Source: Chloroflexota bacterium (lineage in GTDB: Bacteria; Chloroflexota; Anaerolineae; UBA1429). Taken from it: a DNA stretch of 64,000 nt. The translations under genes were made by a program, and so were the position numbers. Below are positions 51,407 through 52,042 of the stretch, piece after piece. Numbering within the stretch: position 1 is the stretch's first letter; every line of letters begins with the position of its first letter. The DNA lies in assembly GCA_012729455.1 (NCBI GenBank), contig JAAYDC010000007.1:1-64000 (forward strand), given 5' to 3'. The notes below the pieces were generated by a model, which ran no database searches, was not told the origin of the DNA, and worked only from the letters and a program-made list of their open reading frames with translations.

Positions 51407-51688
51407 ATGGAATCCCAGACTGTGTTGCCCGAATCGATCCAGGGACGGCTGAAACGCGTCGAAGGGCAGATCCGCGGTATCCAAAAGATGATCGATGAAA
51501 ACCGCGACTGCGAGTCGATCGTGACCCAGCTGATGGCGGCACGCGCTGCGCTCGACAAGGCCAGCTTGTTGATTATCACTCAGCATGTGCGCCAGTGCCT
51601 GGTCTCGCCCGAAGGCAGTGAGCCGGCTAACATGGAGCGCGTGATGCGCTTTTTATTGCGGCTCGCACCCGGCAGCGAATCCGAATAG
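51407..51688 (+). CDS. csoR: CsoR-type copper-sensing repressor
   Basis: The 93-residue all-helical repressor: RLKRVEGQIRGIQKMIDENRDCESIVTQLMAARAALDKASLLIITQHVRQCL. C35, H60 and C64 match the Cys-His-Cys copper site of CsoR, arguing for Cu(I) rather than RcnR-type nickel sensing. No copper pump or chaperone gene is adjacent. Behind it starts the T-box promoter of trpB2. It has its own promoter with a candidate operator. Confidence 0.88.
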   Translation: MESQTVLPESIQGRLKRVEGQIRGIQKMIDENRDCESIVTQLMAARAALDKASLLIITQHVRQCLVSPEGSEPANMERVMRFLLRLAPGSESE

Positions 51689-51693
51689 GCATC

Positions 51694-51722
51694 TTGACAA
51701 GCCGCAGGGCGTATGCTATTGT
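51694..51722 (+). promoter_or_regulatory. Promoter of the trpB2 leader
   Basis: TTGACA (51694-51699), 17 bases, TATTGT (51717-51722); transcription should start near 51729, at the beginning of the T-box leader. Confidence 0.75.
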
Positions 51723-51734
51723 AGCGACAATCAA

Positions 51735-52042
51735 ATCGCACAGGCGTTGATCGAGAAGAGTAACCGCTCAGACGATGCGTAGAGAGCCGGGGTCAGGTGA
51801 AAGCCCGGTGCAGACGAGGATGGTGAATGGGCTCGGGAGCTATGCAGCCGAAATCAAGTAGGCTGTGTCGGGGTCACCTCCGTTAAATGGGTGAGGGTAT
51901 CGGATGCACAATCCCGTACCCGTAAAGTGAAGCTGGCTGGATAACTCGCCTCACGGCGGGTTTTTTAATCCAGCGGCTTAATGTGGGTGGTACCGCGGAT
52001 GCCAGGGCATTCGTCCCAGTGAGGACGAACGCCCTGTTTTTT
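51735..52042 (+). promoter_or_regulatory. T-box riboswitch, tryptophan-type specifier
   Basis: A leader that senses uncharged tRNA. Stem I has GCGTAG before AGAGAG and closes with CTATGC; the specifier region reads GGTGAA-TGG-GCTCGGGAG with UGG (Trp) at 51828-51830. The T-box sequence GGGTGGTACCGCGG lies at 51985-51998. The terminator is a strong stem (52003-52036) followed by TTTTTT. Upstream of the T-box another hairpin (ACTCGCC/GGCGGGT, 51944-51961) is directly followed by T6. Control of trpB2 by tryptophan is consistent. Confidence 0.93.

Follow-up and report, generated by a model that had tools for sequence, protein, structure and literature searches.

A putative terminator and a predicted competing helix nested in Stem III of tryptophan T-box leaders suggest two serial antitermination decisions on one RNA

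A tryptophan T-box leader upstream of a trpB2 gene in a bacterium of the Chloroflexota probably makes two antitermination decisions in series, both served by the same tRNA sensor formed by Stem I and Stem II. Comparison of related leaders shows that a terminator nested in Stem III (T1) is conserved, that a predicted competing helix (AT1) and T1 exclude each other, and that the strands of the predicted helix co-vary. From this we infer termination at T1, pairing of the tRNA end with a UGGC beside AT1, a hand-over of that end to the ordinary T-box, and possibly discrimination between charged and uncharged tRNA at the first step. The pattern, read from the RNA sequences, suggests that the tryptophan supply may be checked twice on one RNA.

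Results

The leader in the window

The window, the whole 64-kb stretch of DNA analysed here, contains a single match to the Rfam T-box model RF00230, which scored 106.4 bits (E = 1.7e-22; gathering score 93) and identifies the leader as a T-box riboswitch. Its specifier, a Trp codon, fits the TrpB-like gene downstream, the product of which scored 715.6 bits against NF009057 (cut-off 366) and 634.8 bits against TIGR01415 (cut-off 518.85). With a final terminator (T2) also found, the tryptophan T-box leader with the usual T-box and terminator described in the initial annotation was borne out. The features are collected in Table 1. The promoter-like site is a consensus match only (10 of 12 positions; 1 site found against 0.8 expected). 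Directly 5′ of it lies a small ORF (51407-51688) resembling the metal- and formaldehyde-sensing repressors RicR, RcnR and FrmR, with scores under all family cut-offs. The linker hairpin recurs as GGTATCGGA...TCCYGTACC in many trpB2 leaders. The source genome has 8 T-box matches, of which 7 cores were recovered by script; the nested hairpin was found only in the core from the window.

Table 1. Features of the tryptophan T-box leader and its surroundings, as positions in the window
Feature	Position	Strand	Basis
Sigma-70-like promoter, TTGACA-17-TATTGT, with TG before the second hexamer	51694-51722	+	consensus scan
T-box leader	51738-52021	+	RF00230
Specifier TGG (Trp)	51828-51830	+	GAA-TGG in specifier loop
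F-box CCGTTA, stem IIA/B	51880-51885	+	RF00230 match, sequence
Linker hairpin GGGTA...TACCC between stem IIA/B and Stem III	51895-51921	+	sequence; similar hairpins in many relatives, by eye
Purine motif RRRxG (AAGUG) 5′ of Stem III; its GUG doubles as the start of AT1	51925-51929	+	sequence; motif as in section 5.2 of PMC7583486
AT1 5′ strand GUGAAGC (predicted)	51927-51933	+	pairs with 51948-51954, 6 of 7, A-C mismatch 51931/51950
UGGC complementary to the tRNA-Trp end GCCA; candidate second acceptor-end site	51934-51937	+	sequence, conservation
Stem III, predicted to close around T1 once RNA polymerase is past	51930-51979	+	fold, -26.6 kcal/mol
Enclosing stem GCTGGAT / ATCCAGC	51936-51942 / 51968-51974	+	sequence
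T1, putative nested terminator: 8-bp stem, loop TCAC, T6	51943-51966	+	-11.1 kcal/mol; conservation
T1 hairpin AACTCGCC-TCAC-GGCGGGTT	51943-51962; T6 51961-51966	+	sequence
AT1 3′ strand GCCUCAC (predicted), overlapping T1 5′ arm and loop	51948-51954	+	sequence, pairing
T-box sequence GGGTGGTACCGCGG	51985-51998; UGGU 51988-51991	+	RF00230 match, sequence
T2, final terminator with T6	52003-52042	+	-22.2 kcal/mol
trpB2, TrpB-like PLP enzyme, 454 aa	52102-53466	+	NF009057, TIGR01415

T1 is conserved among trpB2 leaders

The initial annotation had also placed a hairpin followed by T6 inside the GCTGGAT/ATCCAGC stem, as a possible additional point of termination or pausing. The hairpin is present, with its left end at 51943 rather than 51944, one base off, and folding of the complete leader places it within Stem III in the minimum-energy structure. 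In the Rfam alignment, 31 bases of Stem III are an insert that corresponds to it. Taken alone, a pattern scan does not reach significance: its 2 terminator-like sites within 2.2 kb compare with 1.1 (sd 1.1) in shuffled sequence. T1 is taken to be real because of its conservation.

Orthologues of trpB2 were collected from 150 genomes of the class (most probably Anaerolineae, the label of many of the closest named Chloroflexota MAGs), of which 121 matched, from the family of the source genome (15 genomes, 13 with a match), and from the best 80 loci on contigs of named genomes. Of the leaders at these 157 loci, 77 were distinct and had both a T-box core and an F-box. A hairpin with U-tract between F-box and T-box was recognised by a first script in 57 of these, and in 61 when longer loops were allowed and the CUGGY motif was included; with one more identified by eye (L102), T1 is present in 62 of 77. 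Within the family it was found in 11 of the 12 readable leaders, including that of the window, and was absent from L071; the thirteenth locus (L069) was too short to read. The trpB2 leader (L184) of Leptolinea tardivitalis YMTK-2, a cultured member of the Anaerolineae, also carries T1. The T1 stems differ widely in sequence, with paired changes, while the loop stays UCA-like. Many T1 hairpins share the tail TTTTTTGTTT with the final terminator, and the U-tract is poor in a few (L045, L068). T1 is dispensable, because it is missing from the other 15 leaders, in which the Stem III helices are different and mostly short.

The comparison of orthologous leaders that the initial annotation had proposed as a check thus revealed a conserved hairpin and not a mere variant of Stem III. 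The putative extra termination point is well supported by this conservation, by the retained U-tract and by the paired changes in the stem; what the initial annotation overlooked is a predicted competing helix with a UGGY beside it, so that T1 would belong to a second terminator/antiterminator pair and not be a simple additional stop.

A genomic repeat, or a standard terminator of this genome, was considered as the source of the hairpin. With at most 2 mismatches allowed, CCGCCNTCACGGCGG occurred 64 times per strand, against 57 and 49 in the reversed control, so that it does not form a repeat family.

A predicted helix competing with T1

Directly 5′ of the UGGY lie seven bases, in most leaders GUGAGGC, that can pair with the last part of the T1 5′ arm together with the T1 loop (for example GCC-A-UCAC). 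The helix that they would form, AT1, shares bases with T1, so that the two are mutually exclusive; the first strand of AT1 is also common to Stem III. Other strands of the leader were inspected by eye for long complementarity that could release T1; AT1 was the candidate that held up. A pseudoknot of the loop with GUGA on an intact T1 was rejected: it would leave no linker to join the pairs of the loop to the 3′ arm, and by reasoning only it looks sterically impossible; in many leaders, moreover, the last C of the loop is already paired within T1.

For the analysis of AT1 pairing, the set was enlarged by searching the class for CTGGY at a fitting distance 5′ of a T-box, which matched at least 200 of 396 genomes, and 100 regions were fetched. 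The resulting total of 349 loci yielded 245 distinct T-box-like cores, of which 157 had T1 and the motif. Because these sequences were selected for CTGGY, they were used for AT1 pairing and not for the conservation of UGGY. Pairs in the nested element were counted by script, as a MAFFT alignment sets the two stem registers out of step.

Among 98 distinct strand combinations, all seven AT1 pairs can form in 52 and six of seven in 45 (at least six in 97 of 98), with at most one bulged base. Searching for the best register favours pairing, hence the use of shuffle controls. The mean pairing score was 6.230 for strands of the same leader, compared to 6.102 (sd 0.027) when one strand was redealt among the leaders, and none of 3000 shuffles did as well; with a scrambled strand, the mean was 5.60. 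An earlier and weaker test on 61 leaders, based on duplex energies, gave -6.60 against -6.29 (sd 0.135), with 60 of 5000 shuffles as good. Relatives share both strands, and related leaders are not independent. We therefore matched leaders into 56 disjoint pairs, each as similar as possible but with different first strands, and exchanged strands within them: pairing became worse in 28 pairs, better in 2 and stayed the same in 26 (34, 4 and 18 with weighted pairs). One of the 2 contrary pairs involves the leader of the window.

The comparison shows that the strands of the predicted AT1 helix change together. The commonest form is GUGAGGC with GCC(R)UCAC, and matched departures from it include GUGAAAC/GUUUCAC (L227), GUGGGGC/GUCCCAC (L269, L344), GUGAAGC/GCU(A)UCAC (L108) and GUGAGAC/GUUUCAC (L270); even the odd first strand GUAACGC (L056) forms six of seven pairs with GUGUUUC. 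For L336 and L098, which form the closest pair, GGC or GAC occurs in the first strand, and GC or GU at the corresponding site of the second; the C in the second strand of L336 costs one T1 pair while fitting AT1. AT1 is weak alone: its median is -3.35 kcal/mol, that of T1 is -12.15 kcal/mol, and in 97 of the 98 combinations T1 has the greater stability. In the minimum-energy fold of the stretch, the outer pairs of AT1 are present in 72 of 98 and absent in 26. The AT1 of the window, which has one A-C mismatch, is predicted at -3.4 kcal/mol.

UGGY beside AT1 and the end of tRNA-Trp

In the trpB2 set, collected without regard to the motif, a UGGY stands directly 3′ of the first AT1 strand in all 61 leaders whose T1 was found by script (TGGC in 58, TGGT in 3). 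At the foot of Stem III, these leaders read RRxUR...CUGGY, with U at x and CUGGY in 61 of 61. In the 15 leaders without T1, x is U in 4 by eye, and CUGGY or UUGGY is found at this position only in L060 and L106. The purine motif itself, with x free, is presented as a general T-box feature in section 5.2 of PMC7583486.

The tRNA-Trp gene of the genome (L225, 363-437) has G as discriminator base and does not encode the CCA end, which is therefore added later; the tRNA would end in GCCA, to which the nested UGGC is complementary with no mismatch. The bulge of the ordinary T-box, UGGU, fits UGGN and is complementary to the same end, with a U-G pair at the discriminator. Each base of the nested UGGY is, however, also predicted to be paired within Stem III in 127 to 145 of 155 leaders, so that the invariance of UGGY cannot by itself establish tRNA pairing; some of the conservation of UGGY, and of the first AT1 strand, is accounted for by Stem III. 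AT1 has neither the ACC half of a T-box bulge nor an A2 helix, and the standard discriminator therefore cannot form there.

Genes downstream and distribution

The nearest downstream match of the 157 leaders with T1 in the enlarged set was trpB2 in 73, trpE in 51 and trpS in 28, and 5 had none in the sequence examined. The queries were TrpB2, TrpS, which scored above its family cut-off, and TrpE, represented by a partial frame with 340 bits against a cut-off of 693. Of the 157, a structural specifier pattern assigned TGG to 51 and a different triplet to 25 while giving no call for 81, and was replaced by a string search. Every one of the 152 full-length T1 leaders has AATGG or AACTGG in its upstream part, compared with 20 of 83 other T-box-like cores; this plain string match is weaker than a structural specifier call. 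The script flagged a hairpin in 3 of 63 full-length cores without a Trp-type specifier (L006, L243, L263), none of them T1-like on inspection. An F-box was present in only 36 of these 63 cores, so that many of the 63 are not T-boxes, and no T1 was recognised in the 36.

Outside the class, the search for CTGGY, a gap and a T-box was applied to 345 genomes from the phylum's other classes, and no T1-like hairpin with U-tract was seen by eye among the 64 matches listed, a search that nested units without CTGGY would escape. Within the family, a second tryptophan T-box (L012 of genome G006), before trpS, lacks the nested terminator, so that T1 comes and goes between leaders.

Discussion

We propose the following sequence of events. 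In the first decision, the two AT1 strands would pair to form an antiterminator. If they did not, the second strand would be captured by T1, and transcription would end about 230 nt into the leader. Pairing of the nested UGGC with the GCCA end of a tRNA-Trp held on Stem I and Stem II would stabilise AT1. Once polymerase was beyond the U-tract, Stem III would displace AT1 and leave T1 harmless in its tip. The tRNA end would then shift to the UGGU in the bulge of the regular T-box, after which the antiterminator and T2 would compete as usual.

By the time polymerase reaches the end of T6, the RNA should already be outside the enzyme as far as about 51954, exactly where the second AT1 strand ends, so that AT1 could form before T1 is complete. 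AT1 is so much weaker than T1 that something must favour it if the gene is to be expressed, and tRNA already bound by Stem I and Stem II is the obvious candidate. In its broader form, our proposal is that the design is class-wide for tryptophan genes (trpB2, trpE and trpS) rather than a local duplication, and that the 3′ end of a single tRNA-Trp is read twice in one round of transcription, at a mini-antiterminator, built from strands that Stem III takes up afterwards, and then at the T-box bulge, with a hand-over between them. We advance this broader form tentatively, its chances being a little under even.

Part of the evidence would also fit other accounts. T1 may genuinely terminate or pause transcription early but without regulation, reducing leak or giving time for tRNA binding, with AT1 incidental. 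The conserved U-tract, the greater stability of T1 in nearly all strand combinations and the absence of the outer AT1 pairs from about a quarter of the minimum-energy folds are all consistent with this account. We consider it unlikely, since the AT1 strands co-vary in leaders with unlike stems, the loop stays UCA-like while the stem around it is replaced, which a bare terminator does not need, and a strong terminator of that kind would block the gene. That the hairpin does nothing but lengthen an ordinary Stem III, with a structural U-run, is very improbable: in the window it does stack into one long Stem III, but the U-tract persists through changes of stem and flanks, Stem III is short in trpB2 leaders that lack the hairpin, and loop and AT1 strands are conserved.

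T1 and AT1 may also form a second decision that is not read by the tRNA end, the balance being shifted by tRNA binding to Stem I and Stem II, or by protein binding at either the UCAC loop or UGGC. The pairing of UGGY within Stem III and the lack of ACC and an A2 helix in AT1, which precludes a standard discriminator, are in keeping with such a decision. Against it stands the invariance of UGG in the unselected set, with a fourth base that is only C or T, as pairing with G73 requires, and we regard it as having a low probability.

In 2008 Vitreschak et al. (RNA 14:717) reportedly described T-boxes of a new structural class, in which terminator-antiterminator elements are duplicated. The leaders studied here, with one sensor followed by two putative terminator-antiterminator units, of which T1 and AT1 have comparative support, may resemble that class. 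In them, the first unit is nested in Stem III and has UGGY without a full T-box sequence. GGGTGGTACCGCGG occurs once in the leader of the window, and the nested unit lacks the full T-box sequence that we assume for each unit of the duplicated class.

Tandem T-boxes, such as those of Bacillota trp and thrS leaders, are described in PMC12452182 as repeating sensor and expression platform. The present leaders resemble them in the proposed two serial decisions on the same tRNA species, but have a single sensor. They also share the parts listed for class I (transcriptional) T-boxes of RF00230 in PMC7583486 (Stem I with specifier, stem II, IIA/B, RRRxG-Stem III-AA, T-box bulge and terminator/antiterminator); unlike those, their Stem III holds a terminator, a predicted competing helix of its own and a second UGGY. 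T-boxes of trpE and a trpB-like gene are given in PMC2494555 for Dehalococcoides, of another class of the phylum. A literature search on nested or successive T-box terminators and on Anaerolineae T-boxes returned nothing relevant. The two-terminator design itself would be of a known kind; its nesting in Stem III and an antiterminator with UGGY only are the parts that we found in no searchable paper.

If the proposal is correct, two serial terminators under one sensor would give a sharper and tighter response to tryptophan shortage without the duplication of the sensor seen in tandem T-boxes. Stem III, which PMC7583486 counts among the elements of the discriminator for aminoacylation, would gain a second role in time, its 5′ strand acting first as an antiterminator. 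The order of tRNA contacts during transcription would become testable on a natural RNA.

tRNA-Ala genes within other T-box leaders

Six further T-box leaders (L350-L355, from genomes G084, G015, G733, G504, G539 and G462) carry a specifier of the Leu type, read by eye as GAA-CTC, and 2 of the 6 scored above the Rfam T-box cut-off. A literature search on a tRNA gene within a T-box returned no match. In all 6 fetched regions, ARAGORN detected a complete tRNA-Ala(GGC) gene in the Stem III loop, for example at 371-444 in L353, where the leader spans 201-508. Downstream, the start of leuS was recognised by eye in L351, L352 and L354, and in L353 and L355 from partial frames that match TIGR00396 without reaching the cut-off for the whole protein. 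The matches listed suggest the arrangement in 13 genomes.
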